Part shown: positions 2,624 through 23,255 of the stretch, piece by piece
Position numbering within the stretch: position 1 is the stretch's first letter
How the letters are laid out: each line of letters starts with the position of its first letter
IMG/VR virus record: IMGVR_UViG_3300048115_000452
Span: 1 to 34,399 of that record
Source of the DNA: a virus
Length of the DNA stretch: 34,399 nt
Reading direction: 5' to 3' (one strand)
Position numbers and translations under genes: made by a program
The notes under the pieces: generated by a model
The model's database searches: none
Told to the model about the DNA's origin: nothing
What the model saw: the letters and a program-made list of their open reading frames with translations, nothing else

Positions 2624-3505
2624 TTAAAGCCCCGTGTTATTAATAAAACTTAATTGCTTTAATGCGTAAATAGCATTACCTGTATGTTTTCTGCACCAGC
2701 ATTTCCAATGCGGCGACCATCTAAAACCATTGCTTTTTATCTCTGTTATAATTTCTTTACTTGGTTTTTCGTCGTGAAATATTTTAACCCTATCATCTGC
2801 TATTGTGGCATAACCTCCGTCAAAAGTAATATCCTCCCAGTTACTTTTACGCTCTATACGGTTTGTCATTACGATAACCTTTTGGCTAGTTCTTTTAATT
2901 GTAGCGTTATTGTTTGTTAATATAAAGGCTGGTATCTTATACTTACCTCCTCTTTGCTCTATTAACTTTAAAGCATCATAATCGTAACCCATTTCTTTAA
3001 GGTATTTAAGCAGCTCGTAATGGTCTTGTATTTTGCATTTTCTAATCTCTGCGTTTATCTCTTTGTACTCGGCTTGGTTATTTAGTAAAAGCTCTAGCCT
3101 ACGCTCTGCTATATCCAGCTCCTCCTCGGGGCTTTTGATTGGCACTCTGTTTACTGCCTTAAAATACTTTTCCCTCCATAAGTAAAAAGCATCACATTTA
3201 TTACGCTCTGCATTATTTGCTTTTCTCGCTTTCCTTACTGGGAAGTTAGAGCCTCCTGTAATCATAGATGATATACAGTTACTCTTAGCTCTCATCCATT
3301 CGCTAAACTTGGCTATAAATTTCTCTTTGTAATTACCTTGCTTATCGCCTAGCTCTTTTAAATCCTCCTCTAACATTTGACTATACTGCTTTACACAGCT
3401 TGTAGCTCTCTTTTCGGGGCTAAATGATGTATAGCTGTGCGCTCTATAACATAAATCCCATAACTCTGAAAGTATTAAACCCTCTACGTCTTTTTTTGTA
3501 CTCAT
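2624..3505 (-). CDS. Phage/mobile-element unknown with C-terminal WSPHWKCW-type module
   Basis: I start at ATG 3505 (MSTKKDVEG), giving 293 residues. An ATG at 3538 would add 11 residues, but the leader motif ACCGAGAGC sits six bases before 3505, the same spacing as at the 14107 gene. Residues about 70-110 contain SNCISSMITGGSNFPVRKA, a conserved block of phage and conjugative-element proteins. The last 50 residues hold SNGFRWSPHWKCWCRKHTGNA and ALKQL, a module (xGFRWSPxxxxWxRxxTxNA) found at the ends of many phage and polyvalent mobile-element proteins. No catalytic motif is clear. It sits between the P4-proximal gene and the GHKL gene. Confidence 0.55.
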   Translation of the reverse strand: MSTKKDVEGLILSELWDLCYRAHSYTSFSPEKRATSCVKQYSQMLEEDLKELGDKQGNYKEKFIAKFSEWMRAKSNCISSMITGGSNFPVRKARKANNAERNKCDAFYLWREKYFKAVNRVPIKSPEEELDIAERRLELLLNNQAEYKEINAEIRKCKIQDHYELLKYLKEMGYDYDALKLIEQRGGKYKIPAFILTNNNATIKRTSQKVIVMTNRIERKSNWEDITFDGGYATIADDRVKIFHDEKPSKEIITEIKSNGFRWSPHWKCWCRKHTGNAIYALKQLSFINNTGL

Positions 3506-3511
3506 TTTTTT

Positions 3512-3520
3512 GCTCTCGGT
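3512..3520 (-). promoter_or_regulatory. Leader motif ACCGAGAGC, six bases before ATG 3505
   Basis: Exact copy of the nine-base motif shared by six leaders in this window; complementary to the GCUCUCGGU segment of the predicted RNA at 21229-21302. If the upstream ATG at 3538 is used, the motif would instead be read as KTES. Confidence 0.6.
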
Positions 3521-3547: not shown

Positions 3548-3775
3548 TTATTTTTCTATTCGTCCGTTTAAAGGGAAAAGCTCGGTAGTAACCAGCGTAC
3601 CCTTTTTTATTTTACGTTTATTACTTAACTGTATATCCTCGGTAAGTGTTTCGGTTTTTCTACCTGCATAACCAAATACGGTGCGGTCTGCTTGCTCCAA
3701 TCGTATAGAGCCTACATATTTGCCCTGTACTAAATAATCTACGGAGTAACCTACTGTTTTAAATTTAACTGCCAT
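3548..3775 (-). CDS. 75-residue unknown protein, first gene after promoter P4
   Basis: I start at MAVKFKTVGYSVDYL (ATG 3775). A longer frame to 3829 would have to be read through the -7 box of P4, upstream of its transcription start, so it cannot be made from P4. The protein is short and beta-rich in appearance (VDYLVQGKYVGSIRL), with a basic stretch NKRKIKKGT. The leader carries ACCGAGAGC three bases before the start. No family recognised. As first gene of the P4 unit it should be made with the same timing as the P1 and P2 genes, that is early or middle. Confidence 0.55.
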   Translation of the reverse strand: MAVKFKTVGYSVDYLVQGKYVGSIRLEQADRTVFGYAGRKTETLTEDIQLSNKRKIKKGTLVTTELFPLNGRIEK

Positions 3776-3778
3776 TTC

Positions 3779-3787
3779 GCTCTCGGT
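3779..3787 (-). promoter_or_regulatory. Leader motif ACCGAGAGC in the P4 transcript
   Basis: Exact motif with GAA between it and ATG 3775. The next base is G, which extends complementarity with the predicted RNA at 21229-21302 to ten base pairs, the longest of the six sites. Confidence 0.65.
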
Positions 3788-13331: not shown

Positions 13332-13772
13332 TTAAATTAAATTACTTGGGTCTTCTACATATACCCCGTACTCCTGCGCAGCAATATCTTTTAAATGCTC
13401 TATAAAAAAAACTAACTGCTGGTTATCTAAATCCTCTAAATCAATTACAGAGCTTTCCCATTTTCGCAGCTCCTCGTTATAAACCTCTTTAATAGTTAAA
13501 GGGCTTTCGGATCTCAATTTCTCGTCTGTTTGCTTTAGTGTTAATCGCTCGCCTTGTAAAAGTAAAGCCCTCTGCATATCGGGTACTATCTTTTTTTTGT
13601 AGTAAACTATTAACGGCACACTTAACGGGGTTGTTTTTGTTACCTCGATAGTCATAGTAAAAAAGCTGTTTTTCCATTGCTTAAAATACTCCTGCATATC
13701 TTGCTTATTGGAAATCATAAAGCCGCCGTCTTTATTAGTTTGTCCGTAAATAACTAAATCCCTGCGCCTCAT
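13332..13772 (-). CDS. Unknown protein, about 146 residues
   Basis: The frame from ATG 13772 begins MRRRDLVIYGQTNKDGGFMI, overlapping the previous gene by four bases (ATGA), a convincing coupled start. Strands early in the protein (FFTMTIEVTKTT, VPLIVYYKKKIVPDMQRALL) and helices later (VFFIEHLKDIAAQEYGVYVE) suggest a compact alpha/beta protein. I recognise no catalytic motif. It lies in the operon between an unknown 112-residue protein and the TOPRIM protein. Confidence 0.55.
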   Translation of the reverse strand: MRRRDLVIYGQTNKDGGFMISNKQDMQEYFKQWKNSFFTMTIEVTKTTPLSVPLIVYYKKKIVPDMQRALLLQGERLTLKQTDEKLRSESPLTIKEVYNEELRKWESSVIDLEDLDNQQLVFFIEHLKDIAAQEYGVYVEDPSNLI

Positions 13773-14107
13773 ATTTTCCCTTTTACTTTGTCTATTAACT
13801 TATCCATAGCTCGGTTATAATAAGCCTCGAAATCTTGGTCGTTAATATGTTCAAACCAGTATTCGTAAATAGCTCCTCGTAGTTTTTTGCTTGCGCTTTG
13901 TCCTTTGTCGTTTACCCCTATACGTTTATCACGCATAGCCAGCTCTGCCTCTTGCGTAATTTTATCGGCACTAAACAATAAATAACCTGGTGCTTTCTCT
14001 ATATAATGCTCGTCTATTTCGCTTACTGTATCGGTAGTAGTAAATATTACCTTTGTTTGTGTTTCCTGTCGCTCTGTTTTAGCGTGCTTAACTGTAATTT
14101 TTAACAT
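13769..14107 (-). CDS. 112-residue unknown protein with the regulated leader motif
   Basis: Starts at ATG 14107, six bases after the leader motif ACCGAGAGC. The N-terminal half has strands and many threonines (KVIFTTTDTVSEIDEHYI); the rest is helical and charged (EAYYNRAMDKLIDKVKG). No family recognised. A near-match to a -7 box (TATAAATTGC) lies about 20 bases upstream of the motif, but no promoter of the P1-P4 type is present. Confidence 0.6.
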   Translation of the reverse strand: MLKITVKHAKTERQETQTKVIFTTTDTVSEIDEHYIEKAPGYLLFSADKITQEAELAMRDKRIGVNDKGQSASKKLRGAIYEYWFEHINDQDFEAYYNRAMDKLIDKVKGKI

Positions 14108-14113
14108 CTTTTT

Positions 14114-14122
14114 GCTCTCGGT
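14114..14122 (-). promoter_or_regulatory. Leader motif ACCGAGAGC before ATG 14107
   Basis: Exact motif, six bases from the start codon, in a gap of about 50 bases between genes. Nine base pairs possible with the predicted RNA at 21229-21302. Confidence 0.6.
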
Positions 14123-15085: not shown

Positions 15086-15394
15086 TCATAGCCAAACCGT
15101 TAAACCTAACTTTGTGTAACACTCCTTTATTTGCCTTGGCGAGTATGGAGGGTCAAACAAAACCACATCAACGCTATTACTCTTTACGGTTTTTAAAAAC
15201 TCTAAAGCATCTAAACTAAAATCACATTTATAAACTGGGTCTATATCGTTAGTTACTTTAGCCATACGGTTTTTATTAGCAAAAGGGTCTATACTGTAAT
15301 CGTTCGTACTTAAATGCCTGCCTATAAAATTACGTATTGCTTTAATATCAAACGTATTGCTATTAGGCATTTCCCACTCTCTAGTTATCTTCAT
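15086..15394 (-). CDS. N-terminal fragment of a split adenine-type DNA methyltransferase
   Basis: 102 residues: MKITREWEMPNSNTFDIKAI, IDPFANKNRMAKVTNDIDP, then VDVVLFDPPYSPRQIKECYT. SIDPFAN and NDIDP form the SAM-binding part, and DPPY is catalytic motif IV. The frame then leaves the family consensus after KLGLTV and stops two codons later (WL). The missing half is at 14505-14741. The start overlaps the resolvase gene by 14 bases. Alone, the fragment has the catalytic motif but lacks the remaining fold. Confidence 0.75.
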   Translation of the reverse strand: MKITREWEMPNSNTFDIKAIRNFIGRHLSTNDYSIDPFANKNRMAKVTNDIDPVYKCDFSLDALEFLKTVKSNSVDVVLFDPPYSPRQIKECYTKLGLTVWL

Positions 15395-15920
15395 TAAATA
15401 ACTCCTTTTGCGCAGCAGGAGGTAAACGCTCCATTACCCAGTTAATATCTGTGTTAAATTTAAGCCTACCGAAATGAACAATACAAAGCGCATCACTATT
15501 CCATAACGTAGCCTTAACCTCGGGGTAGTATTGTGCAGCAGCAGCTTTATACCTATCCTTACGGGCTTTTTTATCCTCGCCTTTTTTTCGCAAGTTTAAA
15601 CCGTGCTGCCAGCTCTGCGGGTAAACCTGTACAAAAGGTATTTTTGCCAAAGTTAATACTGTCTTAAGCTGCTCAAAATTAGCCAGCATTTTATCTATAC
15701 CAAAACGCTTACCGCCTGTATCGGTGTCGCTTTTCCAGCTTGATACTTTTTCTATAAAGCATATTGGTTTCTCGTAAGTCTCTTTAACGTAGTTTAGATA
15801 CTCTGCTAGATCACTTACATTTTTTGGCATCTTAGCTACACTTATACCAGCTTTGTAATTGTATAGTGCTATACCTCCGCCAGCTCCAGGGTCGATGCCT
15901 ATTATTGTTTTTACTTTCAT
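15381..15920 (-). CDS. RuvC-like Holliday-junction resolvase
   Basis: 179 residues with an RNase H fold typical of RuvC: IGIDPGAGGGIALY (Asp10), CFIEKVSSW (Glu57), and WNSDALCIVHF (Asp143) as acidic metal ligands. A conserved block KKARKDRYKAAAAQYYPEV precedes the last motif. It would cut branched intermediates during phage recombination or packaging. The start ATG 15920 overlaps the stop of the preceding gene by four bases, and the leader motif variant ACCGAGAGT lies within the end of that gene, two bases before the ATG. Confidence 0.85.
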   Translation of the reverse strand: MKVKTIIGIDPGAGGGIALYNYKAGISVAKMPKNVSDLAEYLNYVKETYEKPICFIEKVSSWKSDTDTGGKRFGIDKMLANFEQLKTVLTLAKIPFVQVYPQSWQHGLNLRKKGEDKKARKDRYKAAAAQYYPEVKATLWNSDALCIVHFGRLKFNTDINWVMERLPPAAQKELFNEDN

Positions 15921-16849
15921 TTACTCTCGGTTTTAATTTTTATTACTGTTTTTATATCCGTTTTCTCCGCTATAAGTTTATCGAAATAATCCTTTATAGC
16001 CTTGTTATTTTCTATGCTCTCGGCTTGGCTTAAAAGTATAGTGTCAATCTTATTTTTATGATAATTTGCGATTACGCCCTTTTTTTGTATGCGGGGTGCA
16101 TCACTAACGATAAAAGTTCGATACGCTTTGTCAATGGCTGATTTGCTCGGCTCGGGTTTTTTCTCTAAAGCTCCCTGCTGTATAAACTCATTTATAAAGA
16201 TGCTTAATATAAATCTAGGCTCTACTCCGTTATCTCGGTAATTATAAAACGCCTTGTATATATCCTCTATAAATGCCTTTTTGTTGGCTGCCTTTTGCTC
16301 CTCCGTAATTACATTAACTGGGGCAGGCAGAGCTTTACGAGCCTTAAACCAAACTTTGTTCTTTTTAGCTCTGTAAGCGTTTAGTATTTTAGTGTAGTAC
16401 TCCAAGCTAAATGCTTGGTAGTGGTTTTTATCGGGGTTGCCGTTTTTATCTTTTGGTAGCCATTCGTCAAGCTCGCCAACTGCTGCCAACTCAAACGCTA
16501 GTTTTACCTCCTTAAAACTAAAATCTTTGTAGTATTTTTTTAGTGTATCAAAAAAACGAGTAGCATCGTATTTCATAACCTCGGCGTTATTCCAATCCTT
16601 AACCCCTATATCACGGCAAATAAATTTAGTAGCAGTAGCTACCTTTTTTACCAGCTCTTGGTCGGCTATCTTTCTTATAGGCGTTTCTATTCCCGCCTGC
16701 GCAATCATTAAATCGTTATCTGATAATTTTATTTGCACCTCCGCAGCTTGTAGTAGTGCTGCTTTTTGCTCTAGGTAGTAATCTTGTTTGTAAGTTAATA
16801 GAGCATTGCTCTTTTTTACGGCTGGTAACATTGTTATCTTTTTTGTCAT
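15917..16849 (-). CDS. Replication-associated protein of unknown type, first gene after promoter P3
   Basis: 310 residues from MTKKITMLPAVKKSNALLTY. It is helical and basic, with RFFDTLKKYYKDFSFKEVKL, WLPKDKNGNPDKNHYQAFSL and a long helical C-terminus ending KTESK. The first ATG at 16849 is only one base from the -7 box of P3, so transcripts from P3 would begin after it. The methionine at residue 7 (ATG 16831) is then the likelier start for that promoter, and 16849 could be used only on readthrough RNA. The position before the resolvase suggests a helicase loader or replication protein. The KTESK end is the leader motif of the next gene read in frame. Confidence 0.6.
   Translation of the reverse strand: MTKKITMLPAVKKSNALLTYKQDYYLEQKAALLQAAEVQIKLSDNDLMIAQAGIETPIRKIADQELVKKVATATKFICRDIGVKDWNNAEVMKYDATRFFDTLKKYYKDFSFKEVKLAFELAAVGELDEWLPKDKNGNPDKNHYQAFSLEYYTKILNAYRAKKNKVWFKARKALPAPVNVITEEQKAANKKAFIEDIYKAFYNYRDNGVEPRFILSIFINEFIQQGALEKKPEPSKSAIDKAYRTFIVSDAPRIQKKGVIANYHKNKIDTILLSQAESIENNKAIKDYFDKLIAEKTDIKTVIKIKTESK
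15923..15931 (-). promoter_or_regulatory. Leader motif variant ACCGAGAGT before the resolvase start
   Basis: One base differs from the other five sites (final C to T). The change keeps pairing with the predicted RNA at 21229-21302 through a G-U wobble. It is two bases from ATG 15920 and lies inside the upstream coding sequence. Confidence 0.5.
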
Positions 16850-21018: not shown

Positions 21019-21153
21019 TTAATCGTAGTAATCTGCCTTTTGGCACTCTTTAGAGCAGTAGTATTTATTATCTGTCGGCTCGCCGCAGAAACTACACTCA
21101 TTATCTTTTTCCTCGTCGTAAGGGTTTGCTGTTTTCCAGTCGTCGTATGTCAT
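21019..21153 (-). CDS. 44-residue zinc-ribbon protein
   Basis: ATG at 21153, TAA at 21019-21021: MTYDDWKTANPYDEEKDNE, then CSFCGEPTDNKYYCSKECQK and ADYYD. Cys pairs C-x2-C and C-x4-C around a short beta turn make a treble-clef or zinc-ribbon knuckle like those of MYND/HIT-type or DUF2116 proteins. It is first in the P2 unit and has the exact leader motif three bases before its start. Its small size means many gene finders skip it. Confidence 0.7.
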   Translation of the reverse strand: MTYDDWKTANPYDEEKDNECSFCGEPTDNKYYCSKECQKADYYD

Positions 21154-21156
21154 TTT

Positions 21157-21165
21157 GCTCTCGGT
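21157..21165 (-). promoter_or_regulatory. Leader motif ACCGAGAGC in the P2 transcript
   Basis: Exact motif, AAA, then ATG 21153. It is about 70 bases downstream of the predicted RNA gene that carries the complementary sequence. Confidence 0.65.
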
Positions 21166-21213: not shown

Positions 21214-21231
21214 ATTAAAATTTATTTTTAA
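21214..21231 (-). promoter_or_regulatory. Upstream operator-like dyad at P2
   Basis: Minus strand TTAAAAATAAATTTTAAT: perfect dyad TTAAAA-ATAAA-TTTTAA, differing from the spacer element of P2 by one base (T for G). It begins 32 bp upstream of that element, about three helical turns. Confidence 0.55.
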
Positions 21232-21302
21232 AAAAGAAACCCCAGCACCGAAGTACTAGGGTTGGTCGCAGATATACCGAGAGCGGTCGGATATAAGCGG
21301 AG
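21229..21302 (-). ncRNA. Predicted small RNA with anti-leader hairpin
   Basis: Between a consensus promoter (21308-21336) and a strong terminator (21230-21263) lies a stretch of about 74 nt with no reading frame. Its 5' part folds as ACCG-CUCU-CGGU, flanked by AUAU arms, with CUCU in the loop. The segment GCUCUCGGU (21284-21276) is the exact complement of the leader motif ACCGAGAGC present at five phage genes, and a sixth site pairs with one G-U. The 3' part is the C(UUCG)G-capped terminator with a U-tail. The layout (short, own promoter, exposed pyrimidine-rich loop, intrinsic terminator) is that of bacterial trans-acting small RNAs. Pairing next to start codons would be expected to hinder, or by unfolding help, translation. 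Alternative: an untranslated leader or DNA operator with chance complementarity. Confidence 0.6.
21230..21263 (-). terminator. Intrinsic terminator with UUCG tetraloop
   Basis: Minus strand AACCCTAGTAC-TTCG-GTGCTGGGGTT: eleven pairs with two G-U wobbles and a canonical C(UUCG)G loop, followed by TCTTTTTT. It ends the predicted RNA and separates operon 1 from P2. Confidence 0.85.
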
Positions 21303-21307
21303 TGCTA

Positions 21308-21336
21308 CAAATATAGACTTTTTTTAGGTTTACAAA
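21308..21336 (-). promoter_or_regulatory. Consensus promoter of the predicted small RNA
   Basis: TTTG at 21336-21333, 17 bp, TATATTTG at 21315-21308. It matches the Bacteroidota primary-sigma consensus at every fixed position. The -33 box overlaps the last codons of the 62-residue gene. The start would be near 21302. Unlike P1-P4 its spacer lacks the dyad. Confidence 0.7.
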
Positions 21337-22852: not shown

Positions 22853-22995
22853 ATAAAATAATTATGGTTTGTTTTTATTATAACACGCTTACCGCATTTT
22901 TTGCAGGTGTAAACGTGTTTCTGTACAAAGCTATGTTTATATTTTAGCTTTTTACTTTTGCAGCTCTCGCTATCGCAAATAAGTTGCTGGCTCAT
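22849..22995 (-). CDS. 48-residue zinc-ribbon protein
   Basis: ATG 22995 (overlapping the preceding TAA by one base) to TGA 22849: MSQQLICDSESCKSKKLKYK, then a strand HSFVQKHVYTCKKCGKRVII and KTNHNYFI. Cys pairs C-x4-C and C-x2-C make a zinc ribbon typical of small nucleic-acid-binding proteins. It is packed between two genes with one- and four-base overlaps, which supports coding despite its size. Confidence 0.65.
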   Translation of the reverse strand: MSQQLICDSESCKSKKLKYKHSFVQKHVYTCKKCGKRVIIKTNHNYFI

Positions 22996-23243
22996 TATTT
23001 GGAGTAAAACGTAACTCTTACCCCACTACGTAGTTTACTTGTGTGTTTGTCTAATCCACTATTAAAAGCACGCTCTACAAACTTATTAGTAAATTCTAAA
23101 CCCACTAACCTAATTAAACCCGATACACCTAAAGCGGTGTTTAAGTTCTTGCCGTACTTGTTAGTAGTATGGGCTTTAATTCTAAAGTTTTGGTTAATTT
23201 CTTTTGTGGAGTACTTAAGTCCGTCATAAATTGAAAATTCCAT
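22995..23243 (-). CDS. 82-residue unknown protein, first gene of operon 1
   Basis: MEFSIYDGLKYSTKEINQNF, then a basic stretch, ALGVSGLIRLVGLEFTNKFV, and a C-terminal part KHTSKLRSGVRVTFYSK. Mixed alpha/beta, basic. Being first after P1, with the exact ACCGAGAGC leader, it should be among the earliest and most tightly controlled products. No recognised family. Confidence 0.6.
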   Translation of the reverse strand: MEFSIYDGLKYSTKEINQNFRIKAHTTNKYGKNLNTALGVSGLIRLVGLEFTNKFVERAFNSGLDKHTSKLRSGVRVTFYSK

Positions 23244-23246
23244 TTT

Positions 23247-23255
23247 GCTCTCGGT
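23247..23255 (-). promoter_or_regulatory. Leader motif ACCGAGAGC in the P1 transcript
   Basis: Exact motif, AAA, then ATG 23243: the same leader end as at P2, although the coding regions are unrelated. Confidence 0.65.

Follow-up and report, generated by a model that had tools for sequence, protein, structure and literature searches.

A predicted small RNA gene with its own promoter and terminator

The window, by which we mean the whole stretch of viral DNA analyzed here (34,399 nucleotides, IMG/VR record IMGVR_UViG_3300048115_000452), contains a predicted small RNA (sRNA) gene whose elements lie on the minus strand:

21230..21304, minus strand: small RNA gene, ~75 nt; the 5' end near 21302-21304 is estimated by promoter spacing, and the 3' end lies within the U tract
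21333..21336, minus strand: upstream promoter element TTTG, with a 17-nt spacer to TATATTTG
21308..21315, minus strand: -7 box TATATTTG, Bacteroidota consensus TAnnTTTG
21267..21299, minus strand: 5' hairpin presenting the seed, CGC..AUAU.CCGA-(CCGCUC)-UCGG.AUAU..GCG (MFE and centroid fold)
21276..21284, minus strand: seed GCUCUCGGU, complement of the leader motif
21238..21263, minus strand: terminator hairpin AACCCUAGUAC-UUCG-GUGCUGGGGUU, 11 bp with a C(UUCG)G cap
21230-21239, minus strand: U tract 3' of the terminator hairpin

A joint scan of the whole window for a Bacteroidota-type promoter and an intrinsic terminator within 125 nt returned this gene as the sole promoter-to-terminator unit in 34 kb. 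Judged from sequence alone, it is an independent short unit with its own promoter and intrinsic terminator; a transcript has not been observed. A preliminary description of this DNA had placed the RNA at 21229-21302. The gene unit stands, and we assign it to the minus strand at ~21304-21230 with a predicted length of ~75 nt. The consensus promoter (TTTG-17-TATATTTG) and the C(UUCG)G-capped terminator described there are both present. The consensus string TAnnTTTG appears in PMC7366714, and the TTG/TTTG-n-TAnnTTTG promoter arrangement is retained in the sRNA homologues introduced below.

The predicted window RNA is much more stably folded than shuffled sequence, with a z of -5.5. As first proposed, the 5' hairpin contains GCUCUCGGU, the exact complement of the leader motif ACCGAGAGC; this seed begins in the loop and continues along the 3' arm of the inner stem. 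The hairpin itself had to be redrawn. In place of ACCG-CUCU-CGGU, the best and conserved structure is CCGA-(CCGCUC)-UCGG with a lower stem, and in the fold from Croceibacter phage P2559S the CCGA/UCGG stem is retained whereas the ACCG/CGGU stem is broken (AACG). Rfam 15 covariance models gave zero matches in the window and none in the homologue from Parabacteroides phage PDS1 at E up to 5.

The seed is complementary to sites at phage start codons

Sites complementary to the seed precede six genes of the window:

23247..23255, minus strand: leader site ACCGAGAGC, 3 nt before the ATG of CDS 22995-23243 (82 aa, phrog_32997)
21157..21165, minus strand: leader site ACCGAGAGC, 3 nt before the ATG of CDS 21019-21153 (44 aa, four-cysteine protein)
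15923..15931, minus strand: leader site ACCGAGAGU (G-U at the last base), 2 nt before the ATG of CDS 15381-15920 (Holliday junction resolvase, phrog_1770)
14114..14122, minus strand: leader site ACCGAGAGC, 6 nt before the ATG of CDS 13769-14107 (112 aa)
3779..3787, minus strand: leader site ACCGAGAGC(G), 3 nt before the ATG of CDS 3548-3775 (75 aa), with a tenth pair to the seed
3512..3520, minus strand: leader site ACCGAGAGC, 6 nt before the ATG of CDS 2624-3505 (phrog_19458, primase)

All six sites are on the minus strand, which is the coding strand, 2-6 nt ahead of the ATG; five of the six are unlinked to the sRNA gene, and complementarity spans 8-10 nt. The motif copies reported earlier before the starts at 3505, 3775, 14107, 21153 and 23243 were found exactly where they had been placed, the tenth base pair at the 3775 site was present, and the resolvase (CDS 15381-15920) is indeed among the targets. 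The ninth motif base is variable among relatives, leaving ACCGAGAG as the core. Counting both strands, this 8-mer occurs seven times in the window, with six copies start-proximal and the seventh being the sRNA gene itself (binomial 6e-9); all sense copies (6/6) are near starts. When up to one mismatch is allowed, ACCGAGAGC has 21 matches against 3.6 expected and a maximum of 9 in 100 shuffles.

The window leaders fold weakly, with the motif at least half unpaired and no stable start-masking helix. In cofolding with the full sRNA, three window leaders gained more than 99-100 of 100 shuffled leaders. Equally good pairing with shuffled leaders had been named beforehand as a result that would count against the proposal; shuffled loops or leaders paired worse in most cases, but the sites at 21157 and 3512 were marginal (beaten by 6/100 and 4/100 shuffled leaders) and the resolvase site at 15923 was indistinguishable from shuffled leaders, 43/100 of which did better. 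The sixth site, originally given at 15920, is upheld as a G-U-pairing motif (a variant also written ACCGAGAGT) but not by its cofold.

Several of these sites recur in relatives. The resolvase site sits inside the 3' end of the upstream gene, and relative L005 has the same motif. CDS 21019-21153 is the next gene after the sRNA, and its leader site is retained in P2559S, L005 and L009. The gp55 leader motif of P2559S is that of window CDS 13769-14107, a leader in L004 at 10293 is similar to the one with the window site at 3512, and orthologues of phrog_32997 in other phages have leaders that match each phage's own sRNA.

We also noted that the 44-aa gene at 21019-21153 is absent from ORF lists with a 50-aa cut-off, and that its protein has similar N-termini (M-T/N-YDDWK) in P2559S, L005 and L009. 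Separately, three of the six leaders share a promoter-like block, AAAGTTTAATTTAGC, on their upstream side (3812, 21188 and 23280, minus strand); its counterpart in relatives is GTTTAAATTTGACC, a perfect TAnnTTTG.

Close relatives keep the seed and partly change the targets

The sRNA gene is found at the corresponding place in three IMG/VR contigs and in P2559S, where the annotation has no feature over it. The seed is identical among these close relatives, while the terminator sequence differs by lineage with terminator-type pairing kept. The core ACCGAGAG precedes start codons here too, partly those of other genes: in P2559S the DnaD-like gp49 has it, whereas the resolvase does not. All sense sites of P2559S are start-proximal (4/4). 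A P2559S-like record has five sense sites and one antisense copy, which is its sRNA gene, and the sites inspected in it directly abut an ATG. The leader/loop code of the window clade is ACCGAGAGC/GCUCUCGGU.

Distant phages of Bacteroidota carry homologous RNA genes

More distant phages were reached through phrog_32997, the 82-aa product of the gene with its start at 23243, which is found in Elizabethkingia phage TCUEAP2, Alistipes phage AS73P1, Bacteroides phages C1_85S2P and BKO1-3, and Parabacteroides phages PDS1 and PD491P1. Each of these six phages encodes a homologous RNA gene that has a Bacteroidota promoter, ends in a terminator of its own and runs on the other strand from its neighboring genes. 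The sRNA is thus conserved with promoter and terminator despite its opposite strand relative to the genes in different clades. In this Bacteroides clade the stem CGCAUAACC/GGUUACUGCG encloses a loop with (C)AUCGCUCUC, and CGCUCUCGGU is invariant in ten homologues spanning two clades.

C1_85S2P, PDS1 and PD491P1 have four leaders apiece with the sequence AGAGCGAUG, the exact complement of the loop CAUCGCUCU, start codon included, and the same three phages also have a site at the phrog_32997 leader (GAGAGCGA). Sites of the AGAGCG type precede seven starts in AS73P1 and two each in TCUEAP2 and BKO1-3. Annotated targets in these distant phages include genes for an SMC/RecN-like ATPase and MazG. 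Neither the sRNA core nor the motif was found in PD691P3 or tant8-1, and the exact Bacteroides-type core was absent from the 393 Bacteroidales genomes searched.

Two further observations concern Bacteroides-type leaders. In L172-L176, a GC hairpin (such as CCGGGGCAACCCCGG) often lies directly upstream of the AGAGCGAU site, for example around 10860 in L175 and around 20090 in L173; it possibly protects the 5' end or sets the exposed site. At 1786 in L242, the phrog_32997 leader reads GAGAGUG rather than GAGAGCG and the sRNA core was not found on the 7.3-kb contig. Joint decay of leader and sRNA is possible, as is an sRNA gene outside the contig.

A third clade carries an RNA of the same plan and a different code

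A phrog_32997 alignment, used to search viral and genome contigs, yielded 74 loci. About ten of these encode an RNA of the same plan in new sequence, GUCU..UUACC-loop-GGUAUU..AGAC followed by a terminator, with a loop core of GUAUCGCC or similar. We located the exonuclease gene of this clade by protein similarity, without consulting the motif, and compared each exonuclease leader with the loop of the same phage. L278, L269 and L249 have the leader GCGAUACGAUGG and the loop CCAUCGUAUCGC, giving 12 pairs. The loop of L274, AAUCGUAUCGC, has an extra A, and its leader, GCGAUACGAUU-AUGG, is altered to match (11 pairs). L259, with leader AUACAGGCGAUAUG and loop CAUAUCGCCUGUAU, reaches the maximum of 14 contiguous pairs. 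The leader of L266 (AGCGAUACGA) forms 10 pairs, those of L262 and L297 (GGCGAUAC) form 8, and those of L253 and L261 form just 7 perfect pairs plus a bulged extension. For the sRNA homologue in L243 (-11649), with loop AAUCGCUCAAAG, none of the start codons in the 20 kb covered has a complement of 8 nt. The exonuclease leaders recovered from window-type phages had no 8-nt site, and we therefore infer that the regulon has been rewired between clades.

Relatives in the third clade and elsewhere have a second promoter-to-terminator unit of ~60-80 nt that precedes the phrog_32997 gene by 300-400 nt (L253 +9581, L256 +9681, L262 +9684, L268 +9672, L280 +9583, L283 +9605, L296 +9683). It is possible that this unit is another small RNA or an attenuator.

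Loops and leaders change together

Across the three clades the loops differ, and leaders match their own loop, including leaders picked by gene orthology. What is kept across homologues is the promoter, the two-hairpin shape and the loop core; what has changed is the terminator and stem sequence, the orientation and the target list. Independent change of hairpin and leader motif in relatives, which the preliminary description had set out as a check, is not what we see.

In a matrix of own versus swapped sRNAs, most phages' leaders paired best or near-best with their own sRNA. The trace was 143 against a permutation mean of 106 and was reached by 0/20,000 permutations; within the third clade only, 4/5,040 permutations reached it. 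The matrix leaders were partly motif-selected, which biases the permutation count, and the fair evidence of covariation is the sequence match of the exonuclease and phrog_32997 leaders chosen by orthology. Since the two clades share CGCUCUCGGU, window-clade leaders pair with Bacteroides-clade sRNAs as well, and divergence of the code shows most clearly in the Bacteroides and third clades. The cofold gain exceeded that of 100/100 shuffled leaders in 7 of 11 tested pairs.

Other measures were less discriminating. In most phages, own and shuffled loops could not be told apart by a duplex-energy count across all ATG-ORFs; internal ATGs swamp the signal and make this count uninformative, and it was replaced by exact-complement and orthology tests. 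K-mer enrichment alone failed to single out the shorter motif in the most distant phages. MAFFT misaligned 5' stems from different clades, and we compared the stems fold by fold, with no formal pair count. Matches in IMG/VR of short DNA patterns from around the seed were mostly unrelated coding sequence, and only those with a promoter and terminator were retained; L227 was discarded. Statements of absence are limited by contig completeness.

A probable trans-acting antisense RNA directed at phage start codons

The properties expected of a trans-acting base-pairing sRNA, namely its own unit, distant multiple targets and covariation with those targets, are all met at the level of sequence, where gene anatomy, conservation, start-site specificity and the clade-specific match of loop and leader can be read directly. 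Loop-leader pairing is well supported by sequence evolution. We consider it probable that the feature is a phage-borne trans-acting antisense sRNA that represses a phage regulon of early and DNA-metabolism genes at the step of translation initiation. With no transcript data, it is inferred that the RNA is transcribed, that it pairs directly with its targets in the cell, that it represses rather than activates them, and when it acts.

Under this model, the sRNA would be transcribed on its own from a host-type promoter. The RNA would consist of a terminator hairpin and a 5' hairpin whose loop, joined in the window clade by the 3' arm of its stem, exposes a seed of 8-12 nt. This seed would pair with leader sequence on, or up to ~6 nt upstream of, several phage start codons: in the window those of first genes of early operons, resolvase and primase, and in relatives those of exonuclease, SMC/RecN-like ATPase, MazG-like and DNA polymerase genes. 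Pairing would cover the ribosome landing site and block the 30S subunit, so that the whole set would be translationally repressed together. GibS shows that start-codon pairing by an sRNA operates in Bacteroides (PMC7366714). If the sRNA accumulates with template number, it could provide shut-off or copy-number-type feedback on DNA-metabolism genes. We prefer late shut-off or copy-number feedback as the role because the targets are mostly DNA-metabolism genes and first genes of early operons, though with low certainty.

The same pairing could instead act positively, stabilizing mRNAs or recruiting a factor so that the target set is switched on. Our evidence speaks to pairing and not to its sign, and strong hairpins just upstream of the site in several relatives mean that leader structure could matter. 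We nonetheless regard activation as unlikely. Pairing includes the start codon itself in two clades, the window leader motifs are at least half unpaired with no stable start-masking helix to open, and the known Bacteroides start-codon precedent is repressive (PMC7366714). Unmasking is the less natural reading because pairing covers or abuts the start codon and the window leader folds are weak, with much of the motif unpaired.

Readings in which the leader motif does not serve an RNA fare worse. The motif might be a site for a phage protein (a translational repressor or enhancer) or a sequence favored by the ribosome, with the complementary hairpin coincidental, as its position near the start codon and the shared AGCG/GAGC core would allow. 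This is very doubtful: the leaders change along with their own sRNA loop, and Bacteroidota translation initiation favors A at -3, -6, -12 and -13, with no preference for a GC-rich block (PMC6847099). Nor is the hairpin a decoy for a leader-reading RNA-binding protein, because it holds the complement of the motif and not a copy. The alternatives named in the preliminary description, a translation enhancer or a DNA site, both fail to explain the covariation.

We give equally little credence to an sRNA that mainly targets host mRNAs, with the phage leader matches secondary. Several known phage sRNAs do act on the host (PMC12197685), but every sense copy of the core in the window and P2559S is at a phage start, and phage leaders track loop changes. 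That ACCGAGAGC(GGT) is a DNA operator, bound by a phage transcription regulator at the leaders and, reversed, at 21276-21287, is scarcely credible: three window sites do follow closely on a promoter sequence that they share, GTTTAATTTAGC, and the sRNA copy extends into an imperfect palindrome (ACCG-AGAG-CGGT), but the leaders lack the palindrome, loop and leaders covary across clades in pairings that can include the AUG, and the promoter-set position and free orientation of an operator are not seen, the sites being set by start codon and coding strand (always 2-6 nt from the start), also inside operons and even within the upstream gene (15923; P2559S gp48/gp49), so that the resolvase site argues against a promoter-linked DNA site.

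Relation to known systems and significance

RNAI of ColE1 and C4 RNA of P1 are small structured RNAs in which a recognition loop opposes a translation start or leader, a design suited to copy-number feedback. Such plasmid and phage antisense control RNAs are mostly encoded opposite or beside a single target. Unlike them, the phage sRNA described here sits at a separate locus and faces ~2-7 unlinked start sites per phage.

Trans-acting phage sRNAs are already known, among them VpdS, PreS and 24B_1 (PMC12197685). VpdS of vibriophage VP882 likewise is phage-encoded, acts in trans and affects phage and host mRNAs, but it is Hfq-bound and belongs to a lysogenic Vibrio phage, and the review describes no start-site motif that spans a clade and covaries with a loop (PMC12197685). 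PreS of lambda and PAK_P4as15 of PAK_P4 are also phage sRNAs, the latter proposed to repress phage-gene translation (PMC12197685). PreS targets host dnaN through Hfq, whereas PAK_P4as15 is antisense to a single gene, and neither has a multi-gene start-site code. Within Bacteroidota, GibS of Bacteroides thetaiotaomicron pairs across target start codons and is repressive there (PMC7366714), but it is chromosomal, ~145 nt long and directed at metabolic targets through a long single-stranded 5' seed, and we saw no sequence relation to it. Obvious homologues of Hfq or ProQ are lacking in Bacteroides (PMC7366714).

We found no Bacteroidota phage sRNA family described in Rfam, in the P2559S annotation or in the open-access literature searched, and within the same literature no phage sRNA precedent for a clade-specific start-site code over many of the phage's own genes. 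Trans-acting phage sRNAs and Bacteroidota start-codon sRNAs are thus known; for this phage family and its clade-specific code we found no record.

Described phage sRNAs are few, come mostly from phages of Gammaproteobacteria, and several rely on Hfq. Here a conserved predicted sRNA with a multi-gene regulon of its phage's own start sites appears in a phylum without Shine-Dalgarno pairing and, in Bacteroides, without an obvious Hfq. We lean toward the view that in a widespread family of Bacteroidota tailed phages, from marine Flavobacteriia to human-gut Bacteroidales, one sRNA serves as a private post-transcriptional master switch, whose clade-specific loop/start-site code has diverged from phage to phage and come to address different DNA-metabolism genes, each switch reading its own code best. 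The cultured members P2559S, PDS1, C1_85S2P, TCUEAP2 and AS73P1 make this claim directly testable. If true, these phages would supply a natural set of Bacteroidota sRNA-leader pairs of differing specificity and would raise the question of how they time their DNA metabolism.
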